This document shows positions 21,259-28,143 of a DNA stretch of 49,610 bases, one piece after another. Source of the stretch: Burkholderiaceae bacterium (GTDB lineage Bacteria > Pseudomonadota > Gammaproteobacteria > Burkholderiales > Burkholderiaceae_D). The stretch's first letter is position 1. Each line of letters starts with the position of its first letter. Where the stretch lies: positions 1 to 49,610 of the forward strand of contig JAIENA010000138.1 in assembly GCA_019751755.1 (NCBI GenBank), in the 5' to 3' direction. The position numbers were made by a program, and so were the translations under genes. Under the pieces are notes generated by a model that was given only the letters and a program-made list of their open reading frames with translations, had not been told where the DNA came from and made no database searches.

Positions 21259-21762
21259 CTACTTCAACTGGCCGAACTGCCCGCCATGGAAGATAAGAGG
21301 AGACTGCGGTTCAATCGCGCAATCCTCGACTTCGCCGACGAAGATCACGTGGTCGCCTTCCGGGTAGCGGCTGCGGTTGTGGCATTCAAACCACGCCGTC
21401 GCGCCTTTCAGGATCGGCATGCCGGTGCGCGATAATTCATATTCGACGCCGTTCCACGGATCGTCGGAACGGCGCGAAAACAGCTTCGCCAGATGGGCCT
21501 GTTCCGCATTCAGGACATTGATGACGTAATGGGAATTGCCGCTGAAAATCGGCATGCTGTTGGCGGCCGCGCCCAGACTCCACAGCACCAGCGGCGGGTC
21601 GAGCGAGACCGAATTGAAGGAACTGGCCGTCAGGCCGCGAAAACTGCCGTCTTCGAGACGGGTGGTGATGACGGTGACGCCAGTGGCGAATTGCGACAGC
21701 GCCTGGCGGAAATGCAGGGCGTCGAATTCGCGTGACGTGGCGCGGGGGGAGCGTATATTCAT
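21259..21762 (-). CDS. flavin reductase-like domain protein
   Basis: A 167-aa FMN-binding split-barrel protein of the flavin reductase family, which supplies reduced flavin to a monooxygenase or acts as an NAD(P)H:flavin oxidoreductase. Visible segments are FATGVTVITT, GLTASSFNSVSLDPPLVLWSL (flavin phosphate and isoalloxazine contacts), and the C-terminal GDHVIFVGEVED. No monooxygenase gene is next to it, so the partner is unknown. It lies 101 bp upstream of gcdH on the same strand and may be co-transcribed. Confidence 0.9.
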   Translation of the reverse strand: MNIRSPRATSREFDALHFRQALSQFATGVTVITTRLEDGSFRGLTASSFNSVSLDPPLVLWSLGAAANSMPIFSGNSHYVINVLNAEQAHLAKLFSRRSDDPWNGVEYELSRTGMPILKGATAWFECHNRSRYPEGDHVIFVGEVEDCAIEPQSPLIFHGGQFGQLK

Positions 21763-21876: not shown

Positions 21877-22430
21877 CCACGGAAAATGCCGCCATGGAAA
21901 CGGCCATACTGGAAACCGCCATACTGGGAGGCGGCTGTTTTTGGTGTATCGAAGCGGTCTACCTGGAAGTACGGGGGGTGACCCAGGTGGAATCGGGCTA
22001 TACCGGCGGGCCGCGACCGAATCCATCGTATGAACAGGTGTGCACCGGCGGCACCGGCCACGCCGAAGTGGTCAAGCTGGCGTTCGACCCGGCCATCATC
22101 ACGTACCGCGATATCCTGGAGATTTTCTTCACGATCCACGATCCGACCACGCTGAACCGCCAGGGCAACGATGTCGGTACCCAGTACCGTTCCGTGATTT
22201 ACTACCAGTCGCCGGAGCAGGAAGCCACGGCGCGCCAGGTGATGGCGGAAATGGCGGCCGTGTGGGATGCGCCGATCGTGACGGAGCTGGCGGCGCCGCA
22301 ACCGTATTTCCGGGCCGAAGACTATCACCAGAATTACTTTGCACAGCACCCGCTGCAGGGGTATTGCGCGTTCGTGGTGGAACCGAAAGTCGTCAAGTTC
22401 CGCAAGATGCACCGCAGCCGCCTGAAATAG
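21873..22430 (+). CDS. msrA: peptide methionine sulfoxide reductase MsrA
   Basis: Reduces the S form of methionine sulfoxide in proteins. The 185-aa product has the catalytic GGGCFWCIE, the GYTGG turn and the YHQNYFAQHP segment. ATG 21873 has a purine-rich AGGGGG upstream; the frame is open from 21825. The start region contains two adjacent copies of a 15-nt unit encoding (M/L)ETAI directly before the catalytic motif, an apparent small tandem duplication. Confidence 0.96.
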   Translation: MTTENAAMETAILETAILGGGCFWCIEAVYLEVRGVTQVESGYTGGPRPNPSYEQVCTGGTGHAEVVKLAFDPAIITYRDILEIFFTIHDPTTLNRQGNDVGTQYRSVIYYQSPEQEATARQVMAEMAAVWDAPIVTELAAPQPYFRAEDYHQNYFAQHPLQGYCAFVVEPKVVKFRKMHRSRLK

Positions 22431-22488: not shown

Positions 22489-23559
22489 ATGAACGTCGTA
22501 ATCGTCGACGATACCCATATCAACCTGGTCTTGATGTCGCGTCTGATCGGCAAGCTCGATGGCGTGCAGACCGTCACGTTCCAGGCGGCGAGGCCGGCGC
22601 TAGACTGGTGCAACAGCGCGCCGTGGGATTTGCTGATCATCGATTACATGATGCCGGACATGGACGGGCTGGAGCTGATCGCACGCCTGCAGGGCGATCC
22701 GCGCGAGCGCCCGCCGGTGTTGATGGTGACGTCCAGCATGGACGTCGAAGTACGGCACCGCGCGCTGGAAAACGGCGCCAGCGATTTCCTCATCAAGCCG
22801 ATCGACAAGGTCGAATTCCTGGCCCGCACCCGCAACATGCTGCAATTGCGGCGCGCCACGGTCGGCTTGCAGCACCGCGCCAGCTGGTTGGCCGACGAGG
22901 TGGCCAAGGCCACGCTGGAATTGCGCTCGCGCGAGCAGGAAACCATCATGCTGCTGGCGCGCGCGTCGGAATACCGCGACCCGGAAACCGGCGCCCATAT
23001 CCTGCGCATGGCGCATTATTCACGCCTGATCGCCGATCAACTGGGCTTGCCGTGGCAGGAGCAGGACGATATTTTTAATGCGGCGCCGATGCACGACGTG
23101 GGCAAGGTTGGCACCCCCGACCAGATCCTGCTCAAGCCGGGCCGCTTGACCGATGATGAAATGGCCATCATGCGCCAGCATGCGCAAATCGGCTACGACA
23201 TCCTGAAAAGCAGCCAGGCGCGCATGCTGCAACTGGCCGCCACCATCGCCCTGACGCACCACGAGCGCTATGACGGCGGTGGCTATCCGCACGGGCTGCA
23301 AGGCGACGGCATTGCGCTGGCCGGCCGCATCGTGGCCGTGGCCGACGTGTTTGACGCGCTGACCAGCCGCCGCCCCTATAAACGGGCATGGAGCATGGAC
23401 GCGGCGCGCCAGTACCTGCGCGATCACAGCGGCAGCCACTTCGATCCGCACTGCGTGGCGGCGCTGCTGGCGCGCTGGGACGAGGTCCAGGCCGTCCACG
23501 CCCGTTACCAGGATCCCGAGCTCGAACCCGAGCCGTCGCCGCCGCCCGGCGGCGCCTGA
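22489..23559 (+). CDS. response regulator with HD-GYP c-di-GMP phosphodiesterase domain (RpfG-like)
   Basis: A 356-aa two-domain regulator. The REC domain (1-~120) has the acidic pair at D7/D8, phosphoacceptor D52 in IIDYMMPDMDG, and K103 in IKPID. The HD-GYP domain (~155-340) has HD at 202-203 (MHDVGK), HHERYDGGGYP at 257-267, and later VADVFDALTSRRPYK. All hallmark residues are present, so c-di-GMP hydrolysis is expected. It is followed after one base by a hybrid histidine kinase with an Hpt domain, its probable phosphodonor. Confidence 0.95.
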   Translation: MNVVIVDDTHINLVLMSRLIGKLDGVQTVTFQAARPALDWCNSAPWDLLIIDYMMPDMDGLELIARLQGDPRERPPVLMVTSSMDVEVRHRALENGASDFLIKPIDKVEFLARTRNMLQLRRATVGLQHRASWLADEVAKATLELRSREQETIMLLARASEYRDPETGAHILRMAHYSRLIADQLGLPWQEQDDIFNAAPMHDVGKVGTPDQILLKPGRLTDDEMAIMRQHAQIGYDILKSSQARMLQLAATIALTHHERYDGGGYPHGLQGDGIALAGRIVAVADVFDALTSRRPYKRAWSMDAARQYLRDHSGSHFDPHCVAALLARWDEVQAVHARYQDPELEPEPSPPPGGA

Positions 23560-23560
23560 G

Positions 23561-25900
23561 ATGCAGTACTTCCGCCTGCTCAAACTCATACGGCGCGCGC
23601 TGGGCGCCGTCAATGAGGAAGAAATGGCGCATCGGCTGGCGTCGTTGCGGGCGATCGGTGAAACCTCGCTGGCCAATGGCCTGGTGGCGCTGTTGCGGGA
23701 AGGCGAGCGGGCCGATCCCGGCCTGGAACCACGGCTGCGCGAAGTGGAAGCGGAGCTGGCGCTGGTGCGCGCGGAAAACCTGCTGTTGCACCAGGAAGCG
23801 GCGCGCCACGGGCTGGGCACGCGCAGCGGCCGCGAGGAAGCGCGCCGGCTGGCGTCGTTGCTGCAGGATTTGCAGCTGCACCGCGAAGACGATGTGCTGC
23901 ATAACCAGGAACTGACGGAGCAGGTCCTTGACCAGTTGCCGATTCCGATCTTCCTCAAGGACCGCGCCGGCCACTACCTGCGCTTTAACAAGCGCTTCGA
24001 GGAAGTCACCCAGCGCACCCGCGAAGAAATCCTCGGCCGCACGATTGAACATATCGCCTCGCCACGCTGGGCCGAAGCCACGCGGCGCGAAGACGCGCTG
24101 GCCTGGCAGGGCCAGATCGTGCACAGCGAACGGCGTCTGATGGGCTTTGATCCGCCGCGCGACGTGATCGTGTCGCGCAGCGTCATCAGCAGCGGCGGCA
24201 ATGAATACATGCTGGGTTATTTCATCGATATCAGCGAACAGCGCGCCGCGCGCGACGCCATGCAGCGGGCGGTGGAATCGGCGGAAACCGCCAACCGCGC
24301 CAAGAGCGAATTCCTGGCCAACATGAGCCATGAAATCCGCACCCCGATGAACGGCATCATCGGCATGACGGAACTGGTGCTGGAGTCCAGCCTGACGCCG
24401 GAGCAGCGCGCCGACCTGACGCTGGTGAAGGCGTCGGCCCAGGCGCTGATGACGATCGTCGACGGTATTCTTGACTTCTCCAAGGTCGAGGCGGGCAAGC
24501 TCGATATCGAAGACGTGCCGTTCGATTTGCGGCAAATGGTGGAAGACGCGGTGCGGGTGATGGCTTTGCGCGCGCGCCAGAAAAATCTCGATTTGCGCTG
24601 CCGGCTGGCGCCGTCGCTGCCGCGCAATGTGCGGGGCGATCCGGGCCGGCTGCGCCAGGTGTTGATCAACCTGATTGGCAACGCCATCAAATTCACCGCC
24701 AGCGGCTATGTGGAAGTGGTGCTGGCGCTGGAACACGATGACGATGAACAGTGCAGCATCCGCTTTAGCGTGCGCGATACCGGCATTGGCATTCCGGAAG
24801 AAAAGCAGCAATTGATTTTCGAGCCGTTTGCGCAAGTCGATGGTTCCACCACGCGCCAGTTTGGCGGTACCGGGCTGGGTTTGACGATTTGCCGCCGTCT
24901 GGTGATCTTGATGCAGGGCGAATTGCACGTCAGTAGTGCGCCGGGGCAGGGCAGCCAGTTCTCCTTCGTGGTGCCGCTGCGCCATACCGGATTGGCGGCG
25001 GTGGCGCCGCCAATCCGGTATGGCGCGGATGACGATGATGCGGATGCCGCCATGGAGGTTGCCGTTGATGTAGCCGTTGATATAGCCGTTGAGGTAGCCA
25101 TTGCGGTAGCCACAGATTTAGCCAATGACGTTACTGCGGATTTAGCCGCTGATGCTGCCGCTGGTGTCGCCACCGACCTCGCCGCTGATGCCCCCGCGCT
25201 GCCGGGCAGCCTGCGCGTGCTGCTGGCCGAAGACAATCCCGTCAACCAGCGCCTGGCGCTGCGCCTGCTGGAAAAACTGGGCCATCGTCCGGTGCTGGTC
25301 GACAGTGGCGTGGCCGCGCTGGAGCTGGCCACTCACCATGACTTTGACGCGGTGCTGATGGACGTGCAAATGCCGGGGCTCGATGGACTGGCGGCCACGC
25401 GCCACATCCGCCAGTGGGAACATGGCGGCAAGCGCCACGTGCCGATCATTGCCATGACCGCGCGTGCCATGGCGGGCGACCGCGAACGGTGCCTGGAAGC
25501 GGGCATGGATGATTATTTGTCCAAGCCGGTCGACCTGGCGCGCCTGCGGCAGGCGCTGGCGCCCTATGTGGCGCAGGCGGCCACCCCGGTGCTGGACTGG
25601 AACGCGGCGCTGTTGCGGCTCGATGGCGATGAAGAGCTATTGCACGAACTGGCTGCGCTGTTCTTGCAGGATGGGCCGCAATTGTGGGATGAAGTGGTGG
25701 CGGCGCGGGCGGCCGGTGACCAGGAACGGTCGGCGCGCGCGGTGCACAGCCTGAAAGGCGTGCTGGTGAATTTTGGCGCGCAGCGGGCGATGACGGCGGC
25801 CGAGTGCTGGTCGGCGGGGAGTGGGGCGGACGATGCGCTGGCGCTGGCGCTGAACGAGGTCTACCGCGAACTGGCGGCGCGCGGCGCGGCGCGCCTGTAA
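23561..25900 (+). CDS. hybrid histidine kinase (PAS-HisKA-HATPase-REC-Hpt)
   Basis: A 779-aa cytoplasmic kinase without clear membrane segments. Order: N-terminal coiled region (1-~115), PAS (~118-225), HisKA with phosphorylated His257 in [11 protein letters not shown], HATPase (N-box [11 protein letters not shown] ~370-380, G-boxes DTGIGIP and GGTGLGL), an unusual linker (~485-548), REC with acceptor D601, and Hpt with H729 in AVHSLKG. This is a complete multi-step relay whose last station can phosphorylate a separate regulator; the HD-GYP gene one base upstream is the obvious candidate. The linker (DNA ~25056-25200) is a degenerate Ala-Val-Asp tetrapeptide repeat rich in GTA, ATA and TTA codons, unlike the rest of the gene. 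Confidence 0.94.
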
Positions 25901-25979: not shown

Positions 25980-27221
25980 TCAGGGCTGGATGCGCTGCTT
26001 GCTCCAGCTGCCATCGGGCTGCAGCGTAAACACGATGCGGTCATGGAAGCGCGAGGCGCGGCCCTGCCAGAACTCGACGCGCTCCGGGATCATCCGGTAG
26101 CCGCCCCAATGTGGCGGACGCTGTGGATGATCGCCGCTGGCCGCCTCCACCGCAGCGTAGTTCGATTCCATCTGCGCCCGGCTGGCGATCGGCTCGCTTT
26201 GCTGTGACGCCACCGCCGACAGCTGGCTTTTCACCGGGCGGCTGTAGAAATATTTGTCGCTCTCTTCGCTGGAGGTCAGTTCCACGCGGCCCTCGATGCG
26301 CACCTGGCGTTCCAGTTCGCGCCAGAAGAACAGCAGCGCCGCGTTGGGGTTTTCCGCCAGTTGGTGGCCTTTGCGGCTGTCGTAATTGGTGTACCAGGTG
26401 AAGCCGCTGTGGTCGTATTGCTTGATCAGCACGATGCGCGAACTGGGTTTGCCATCGCTGCCCACGGTGGCCACGCTCATGGCATTGGCTTCGAACACCT
26501 TGGCGTTCATGGCTTCATCGAACCACTTGGCGAACTGCGCCACCGGATCGTCCAGTACATCGCTTTCGTCAAGGCTGGCGCGACCGTAATCGAGGCGCAA
26601 GTCGGCAAGGTCAACGCCGCCGACGGTGGCGGCGGCCACTGCCGGCGTGTCCGAGGTATCCGGCGTGCCCGGGGTGTCCTGCGCCGCAGGCGTGATACCG
26701 CGCCGCAACTGCATGGCGTCACCCAGGCTGCGCATTTGTTCGTCGCTGAACAGGCGTTTTGCCATCGGCGCAATGTTGCGTTCCTCGACTTCCATGTGCG
26801 CCGTGTAGGCCTCGGCAAACTGGCGCACCAGCGCGTCGGACAAGGCGCGATCCTCACCTGTGGCAATTTTATCAAGCTGGGCTTGGATGACCAGCCAGTC
26901 GGCATCCATCAACTGGTGCTGGGCCAGGATGCGCGGCGCCAAATCATGGAGCAACGCGGCATCGTCGCCTTGCGCGGTGGCCTGCAGCATCGGCAGCAGG
27001 TTCTGTTCTTCATCCTGATGGTGCAGGTGGGCCGCATGGCTGAAATATTTGAGCACGGCCTGGGCTGCCTGTTGGGCTTCGGCGTCGGCGCCATGTTCGG
27101 CCAAGTGCGCCGGCAGTTTTTGCAGGGTGGCCAATTGCTTGCGGATGCGGTCGTGGCAATGCTTGAGGACGGCGATGGGCTGGCTGAAATCCGGGGCGGT
27201 ATCGAACAGGGATGAGGTCAT
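25980..27221 (-). CDS. pdxH: hemerythrin-like domain fused to pyridoxamine 5'-phosphate oxidase
   Basis: A continuous 413-aa frame. Residues ~10-165 are a hemerythrin/HHE four-helix domain with a full set of di-iron ligand candidates: H23, H68-x3-E72, H102 and H142-x3-E146. A Pro/Thr/Ala linker (~177-200) follows. Residues ~205-413 are a complete Pdx[25 protein letters not shown] (FMN contacts), [16 protein letters not shown], and the C-terminal signature [14 protein letters not shown]. PdxH oxidises pyridoxine or pyridoxamine phosphate to PLP using FMN and O2, releasing H2O2. Normal PdxH is about 210-220 aa, so the N-terminal half is an addition. A link to O2, iron or NO sensing or delivery is inference. 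Confidence 0.93.
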
Positions 27222-27294: not shown

Positions 27295-28143
27295 ATGAAC
27301 GCCATTCCCAACCCCGAAGACATCGATTTTGACCGCCGTTTTGGCGGAATCGGCCGCCTCTATGGCCAGGCCGCGCTGCAACGCTTCCGCGACGCCCACG
27401 TGTGCGTGGTCGGCGTGGGCGGCGTCGGTTCGTGGATCGTCGAGGCGCTGGCGCGTAGCGCCATCGGCCGCCTGACGCTGATCGACCTCGATAATGTGGC
27501 CGAGTCCAATATCAATCGCCAGATCCAGGCCTTGAGCGGCACCATCGGCCAGGCCAAGATCCACGCGCTGGCCGAGCGCATTACGCAAATCAACCCGTAT
27601 TGCCAGGTCACGCAGGTCGAGGATTTCGTCACGCCCGATAACCTCGACGCCATGATCGGCGCCCACCACTATGATTATGTGGTCGATGCGATCGACAGCG
27701 CCAAGGCCAAGACCGCGCTGATCGCGTATTGCCGCCAGAAAGCCATCCCGCTGGTGATTATTGGCAGCGCCGGCGGCCAGACCGATCCGACCAAGATTGC
27801 CGTGCGCGATCTGGCCCGCACCGAACAGGAACCGCTGTTGAAAAAAGTGCGGCGCCGTTTGCGCAGCGATTACGGTTTCCCGCGCGGCGAGAAAAACAAG
27901 TTCAATGTGGACGCCGTGTTTTCCATGGAGCCGCTGCAATATCCCGAGTCGGGCGAAGTGTGTTCGGTCGATGGCGATGACCGCAGCGCTACCGGTGTCA
28001 CGGGCCTCAATTGCGCCGGCTTTGGATCGTCGATGGTGGTGACGGCCACGTTCGGCATGGTGGCCGCGGGGCATGTGCTGCGCAAGCTGGCGGCACAGGT
28101 GGCGCCGGGCCCGCAAGCGACGGCATCGGCCGCAACCGAGTAG
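27295..28143 (+). CDS. tcdA: tRNA threonylcarbamoyladenosine dehydratase TcdA (CsdL)
   Basis: E1-like enzyme that cyclises t6A37 to ct6A in tRNAs reading ANN codons, using ATP. The 282-aa product begins with FDRRFGGIGRLYG, then the ThiF nucleotide loop VVGVGGVGSWIVEALARS (~38-55), IDLDNVAESNINRQIQA, and the family segments VIIGSAGGQTDPT and NFGSS-type C-terminus (NCAGFGSSMVVTATFG). It is divergent from the pdxH fusion by 73 bp. Its TAG stop lies inside the left end of a palindromic repeat. Confidence 0.95.
   Translation: MNAIPNPEDIDFDRRFGGIGRLYGQAALQRFRDAHVCVVGVGGVGSWIVEALARSAIGRLTLIDLDNVAESNINRQIQALSGTIGQAKIHALAERITQINPYCQVTQVEDFVTPDNLDAMIGAHHYDYVVDAIDSAKAKTALIAYCRQKAIPLVIIGSAGGQTDPTKIAVRDLARTEQEPLLKKVRRRLRSDYGFPRGEKNKFNVDAVFSMEPLQYPESGEVCSVDGDDRSATGVTGLNCAGFGSSMVVTATFGMVAAGHVLRKLAAQVAPGPQATASAATE

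Follow-up and report, generated by a model that had tools for sequence, protein, structure and literature searches.

The window, i.e., the whole 49,610-nucleotide stretch of Burkholderiaceae DNA analysed here, carries a gene in which a hemerythrin-like (HHE) domain and a pyridoxamine-phosphate oxidase (PdxH) are joined into one protein of 413 amino acids. The positions of the gene, of its parts and of its neighbours are collected in Table 1.

Table 1. Features of the fused gene and of its surroundings in the window (residue numbers are those of the fused protein)
Feature	Position	Strand	Remark
Fused gene, HHE domain – linker – PdxH, 413 aa	25980..27221	-	ATG start, no internal stop
HHE/hemerythrin-like domain, residues 1–178	26688..27221	-	Pfam match 15–154
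Linker, residues 179–203	26613..26687	-	Ala/Thr/Pro-rich; length and sequence vary among relatives
PdxH domain, residues 204–413	25983..26612	-	
R391-F-H-D-R395	26037..26051	-	RxHDR segment of PdxH
H23	27153..27155	-	candidate metal ligand (YtfE H84)
H67	27021..27023	-	candidate metal ligand (YtfE H129)
E71	27009..27011	-	candidate bridging ligand (YtfE E133)
H102	26916..26918	-	candidate metal ligand (YtfE H160)
H142	26796..26798	-	candidate metal ligand (YtfE H204)
E146	26784..26786	-	candidate bridging ligand (YtfE E208)
tcdA	27295..28143	+	divergent neighbour outside the fusion; upstream, on the opposite strand, in 80/80 named fused loci
Hybrid histidine kinase	23561–25900		Ala/Asp-rich spacer
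HD-GYP response regulator	22489–23559		
msrA	21909–22427	+	
Flavin reductase-like gene	21274–21762	-	

The sequence-only reading of this locus, a single uninterrupted frame containing a complete HHE domain and a complete PdxH, was borne out. The frame was open from ATG to stop, and neither a stop codon nor a frameshift, the events that could have undone that reading, was present between the domains in the window. The Pfam Hemerythrin model (PF01814) matched the HHE domain over profile positions 2–127 of 127, with an E-value of 1.4e-12 and 48.6 bits for a gathering cut-off of 25.3. In the second part, the Pfam models PNPOx_N (residues 235–358, E 2.6e-27) and PNP_phzG_C (residues 372–413, E 6.5e-19) both matched above cut-off, and the NCBIfam model TIGR00558 (pdxH) was covered from position 1 to position 190 of 190 with 260.5 bits (cut-off 180). 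With respect to TIGR00558, the protein of the window has the HHE domain added at its N-terminus. The PdxH part aligned with the human and Escherichia coli enzymes, which have structures in the PDB, with the catalytic segments kept, including RxHDR, and 41% identity to E. coli PdxH. Residues R391, F392, H393, D394 and R395, which from their residue roles we take to be the active-site segment of PdxH, were invariant in an alignment of 48 fused proteins (alignment A1). The fused protein was the sole PdxH match of its genome, in which pdxJ, of the DXP-dependent vitamin B6 route, was also present. This route ends in PdxH, and PLP synthesis should therefore need the fused protein in this organism. 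PdxH consumes O2: its FMN is reoxidised by O2, and H2O2 is released.

The occurrence of the fusion was mapped in 294 genomes of the family, drawn evenly from a larger group. It was intact in 102 of them, as 101 full-length stop-free frames plus that of genome G172, in which the linker is reduced to a few residues. The genera concerned (codes g1, g26, g28, g30, g34, g36, g43 and g44) contributed 104 sampled genomes, and the two that did not show an intact fusion were G278, with a frame change, and G293, in which the gene was in pieces in a 48% complete genome. A scan of genome contigs yielded 192 related stretches. The same single frame was found in 80/80 of the best ones, which are named loci, with Duganella, Massilia, Janthinobacterium, Rugamonas and Pseudoduganella among them; Pseudoduganella ginsengisoli is the nearest, at 83% identity. 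The fusion is thus not a private feature of the window lacking in all relatives, as the sequence-only reading had allowed for. Outside the family, no protein spanning both domains appeared among the matches listed for 273 other genomes of the class (at most six candidates scored in each) or for 149 other genomes of the phylum, a sample that overlaps that of the class; these searches could miss a fusion to a much-diverged HHE domain. Eight long-frame PdxH matches of the class search were fetched, and they gave no HHE match. In the genus code g31, which has small genomes (e.g., G109 and G133), a PdxH match was found in 0/13 sampled genomes, as expected if these bacteria are anaerobic. Full-text searching of the literature, judged on titles and on the beginnings of abstracts, found no report of an HHE–PdxH fusion among the papers listed, in agreement with the initial statement that no characterised protein was known to have this design; the main text of PMC4919030 contains no word beginning with pyridox-.

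The 134 fused loci gave 99 distinct fused proteins. Their mean column conservation was 0.75 in the HHE domain, 0.48 in the linker and 0.82 in PdxH, and the median dN/dS ratio, calculated on 150 of 536 eligible pairs, was 0.15 for HHE and 0.08 for PdxH. Both domains are under purifying selection. The linker is without conservation and is very short in G172, and no fixed docking of the two domains is therefore implied.

At least 63 genomes of the family possessed two genes in place of the fused one, the HHE gene immediately preceding pdxH in the same orientation, at distances ranging from an overlap to approximately 160 bases. The rescored genomes comprised 80 of an intended 147 and 27 others, i.e., 107 genomes; the remaining 67 were judged among the matches listed, with at most six candidates scored in each. 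The number of 63 is a lower bound, as several of these 67 genomes showed two matches. G278, because of its frame change, was omitted from the tandem set, and locus L139 from alignment A2. A close HHE domain, full-length or cut by a contig end, was present in 48 of the 107 rescored genomes and was fused to pdxH or directly upstream of it in 46 of the 48. The exceptions were G154 (locus L226), where HHE lies beside cfa and msrA, its pdxH being on a different contig, and G147, whose genome is 68% complete and in which HHE has no adjacent pdxH. Only HHE fragments were found in G076, G148 and G293, and one tandem HHE, in G161, was broken. Several lineages possessed pdxH without HHE; at loci L160, L170 and L173, tcdA and pdxH were near neighbours with no HHE.

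A tree was built on 106 rows retained after thinning (41 fused and 55 tandem rows, plus 10 without HHE). One starred clade grouped 39 fused rows, and the two others, G061 and G079, were placed elsewhere on long branches. A second origin of the fusion, suggested by these branches, was not retained since a tree with one fused clade was not rejected (p-AU 0.77). The HHE-less rows were scattered; parsimony counted 8 changes, and well-supported branches forced only 2 of them. We infer, as the simplest history, an older hhe-pdxH pair, one stop loss (one origin suffices) and scattered losses of HHE. The HHE domain appears to have been encoded at first by a gene of its own next to pdxH, and the fusion would be the end state of the pair.

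The existence of two genes in many genomes of the family, together with the frame change at the fusion locus in G278, could suggest that the single chain is an artefact of annotation or assembly, one locus giving two proteins because of an erroneous frameshift or of translation starting internally. The presence at the junction of some in-frame ATG, GTG or TTG in 88/99 fused genes points in the same direction. A ribosome-site-like word preceding such a start was nevertheless seen in just 7/99 fused genes compared to 47/62 tandem pairs. An internal start producing a separate PdxH, which had been foreseen as a possible objection to the fusion, was rejected on this ground. As the single frame also recurs in 102 family genomes and in 80 named loci, an artefact is hardly credible.

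Downstream of the 80 named fused loci, cfa was found in 71 cases, msrA in 69 and the flavin reductase gene in 69, and the window possesses counterparts of the last two. No cfa was found in the window; the hybrid kinase and the HD-GYP regulator occupy the place that it holds in 71/80 loci, and a related kinase lies downstream in 13/80. The presence of cfa and msrA was considered as a clue to the role of the HHE domain and was discarded: both genes also flank HHE-less pdxH, so this is a background gene order and gives no HHE-specific oxidative link. Across 161 related upstream stretches, sites resembling those of FNR, Fur, NsrR, OxyR, NorR, DNR and IscR were in no convincing excess compared to simple shuffles. 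Two more HHE-domain genes exist elsewhere in the genome of the window.

Of the 52 HHE matches outside the family, 20 were also fetched (L231–L250); these are stand-alone relatives belonging to other families within the order. No pdxH match was present near any of them (0/20, within stretches of 3.4–5.5 kb). A SirB-like gene family was found beside 7/20 (three members were tested, all SirB). Rrf2 regulators were near 3/20, and the three tested had RirA or NsrR as best models, with scores below the cut-offs of these models. A family of HPP membrane proteins was near 3/20 (two tested).

The six candidate metal ligands of the HHE domain, H23, H67, E71, H102, H142 and E146, were present in 99/99 distinct fused proteins and in 20/20 stand-alone relatives. 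Among the 63 tandem HHE proteins, H67, E71, H102, H142 and E146 were found 63/63 times and H23 62/63 times, with one gap. The His, Glu, Asp, Cys and Tyr residues invariant in the 99 fused HHE domains were H21, C22, H23, Y59, H67, H68, D70, E71, E72, D87, H102, Y139, H142, E146 and E147. Several of these were shared by the stand-alone relatives (C22, Y59, H68 and D70 in 20/20, E72 in 19/20, E147 in 9/20 and H21 in 0/20), and E72 was changed in one tandem HHE only, the broken domain of G161. Reports on YtfE (PMC9052748, PMC9268430) give H84, H129, H160, H204, E133 and E208 as the ligands of its two irons. The local motifs are in register with it: H84-DRHREQL in YtfE faces H23-DRIRKQL in the window, and helices 2 and 4 of both contain H-x3-E with a Pro six residues past the Glu. 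This register designates H67/E71 as the helix-2 pair. The sequence-only reading had proposed H23, H68/E72, H102 and H142/E146; its choice of H23, H102 and the pair H142/E146 stands, whereas H68/E72 appears to be off by one. The helix-2 ligands are thus probably H67 and E71, H68 and E72 being conserved too.

The overall pattern, H...HxxxE...H...HxxxE, is common to the window HHE and to the RIC/YtfE proteins, and on sequence register the domain possesses their set of four His and two Glu. It does not possess, as far as can be read from the sequence, the five His, one Glu and one Asp given for O2-carrying hemerythrins in PMC9388753. The RIC/YtfE model (TIGR03652) gave 20.8 bits for the window protein, far from its cut-off of 204.7, and 33.9 and 28.7 bits for two stand-alone relatives. 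The first ligand is H23 in the window and H84 in YtfE, most of the N-terminal region of YtfE being without counterpart. A profile comparison of HHE with YtfE was weak (27 columns, probability 12%), and the resemblance to RIC therefore rests on the motif register and on weak model matches below cut-off. It would be a RIC-type ligand set, as a pattern match rather than as family membership. The model of the PA2171 persister protein (NF053874) was also tried and was discarded, with 28.1 bits for a cut-off of 190. The nearest solved HHE structure by sequence was NMB1532 (PDB 2p0n), matched over residues 9–174 with an E-value of 4e-18; the six candidate ligands align between the two, but the NMB1532 type is a single-domain protein. 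Mycobacterial hemerythrin-like proteins (HLPs), as described in PMC8913304, likewise have a di-iron four-helix site with four His and two Glu, reactive with peroxide and NO. They have catalase or NO peroxidase activity (the latter in Mka HLP) and are not O2 carriers. They differ by an additional Tyr ligand, a role that the invariant Y59 or Y139 might play in the window, and by having a single domain. For HHE sites of the RIC or HLP kind, PMC9052748 and PMC8913304 report chemistry on NO, nitrite and peroxide rather than O2 carriage. The HHE domain is probably iron-binding. A comparison of 38 pdxH-linked with 20 stand-alone HHE domains showed differences at V18, H21, R27 and A151.

We propose, tentatively, that the fused protein is a PLP synthase with a tethered di-iron module of the RIC/YtfE type, which would dispose of oxidants beside the oxidase. 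The completeness of both domains and the purifying selection on them, the conserved catalytic segments, the invariant ligands, the activities of the mycobacterial HLPs, the unfused tandem arrangement in relatives and the Rrf2 regulators near three stand-alone relatives argue for it. The weak profile comparison with YtfE and the upstream stretches with no convincing excess of redox-regulator sites argue against it. So do the unconserved linker, the lineages with pdxH and no HHE, and the absence of an adjacent pdxH in G154 and G147. These last observations would be accounted for by a passenger fusion, in which HHE has its own job in iron, NO or redox metabolism and was carried along at the stop loss, the tether having no effect on PLP, and so would the fact that the 20/20 fetched stand-alone homologs in other families are unlinked to pdxH. 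This explanation, although itself rather unlikely, appears to us nearly as likely as the oxidant-disposing module. It fits poorly with the HHE domain being fused or directly upstream in 46/48 rescored genomes, with the retention of an intact fusion in 102/104 genomes of the fused genera, and with the four positions at which linked and stand-alone domains differ.

The sequence-only reading had put forward an O2 supply, the sensing of O2 or NO, and the handling of peroxide. Given the pattern of four His and two Glu, an O2 supply ranks behind chemistry on peroxide or NO and behind sensing, and it appears as the weakest of the three proposals. A domain binding O2 reversibly could feed the oxidase and help PLP synthesis at low O2. 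The textbook consumption of O2 by PdxH and the membership in the HHE family speak for this, and the invariant H68 could provide a fifth His. A carrier was nevertheless discarded as first choice because the ligands are RIC-type and not five His, one Glu and one Asp, and the HLPs with four His, two Glu and a Tyr are not carriers (PMC8913304). The HHE domain probably does not store O2 reversibly, and we regard an O2 provider as very improbable. A regulatory domain, whose di-iron site would sense O2, iron or NO and alter the activity or stability of PdxH, is doubtful but less so. The analogy would be with FBXL5, which senses iron and O2, and the HHE profile aligned weakly with part of it (E 0.066). 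In addition, the allosteric PLP cage of E. coli PdxH includes R23, R24 and R215 (PMC8215295); the window has Asp and Glu in place of the first two and keeps R215, and PLP feedback may be different in the family of the window and in E. coli. The R23 and R24 positions, however, likewise differ from E. coli in the single tandem PdxH that was aligned and in one other fused PdxH, so that the change is not tied to the fusion, and the flexible linker also argues against regulation.

In the oxidant-disposing model, the stop between the older hhe and pdxH genes would have been lost, giving one protein and fixing a 1:1 ratio of its two parts. The HHE domain would bind two irons and react with small oxidants. 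Most likely it would remove or reduce H2O2, and perhaps NO too, close to the FMN whose reoxidation by O2 liberates H2O2, and this would protect both the flavin and the reactive aldehyde that PdxH produces. A more specific version, which we hold to be improbable as it stands, is a self-protecting oxidase: the di-iron domain would dock on PdxH through a surface peculiar to the pdxH-linked clade (V18, H21, R27 and A151) and consume H2O2 (or NO) at the flavin, at first as a complex of two gene products and then as one chain. If this is true, vitamin B6 synthesis and peroxide disposal would form one unit. The linkage of HHE to pdxH across much of one family, with a covalent fusion as its end state, suggests that di-iron chemistry and vitamin B6 synthesis are functionally connected, and the tandem, fused and HHE-less lineages constitute a natural comparison for the contribution of an HHE domain to a flavin oxidase.
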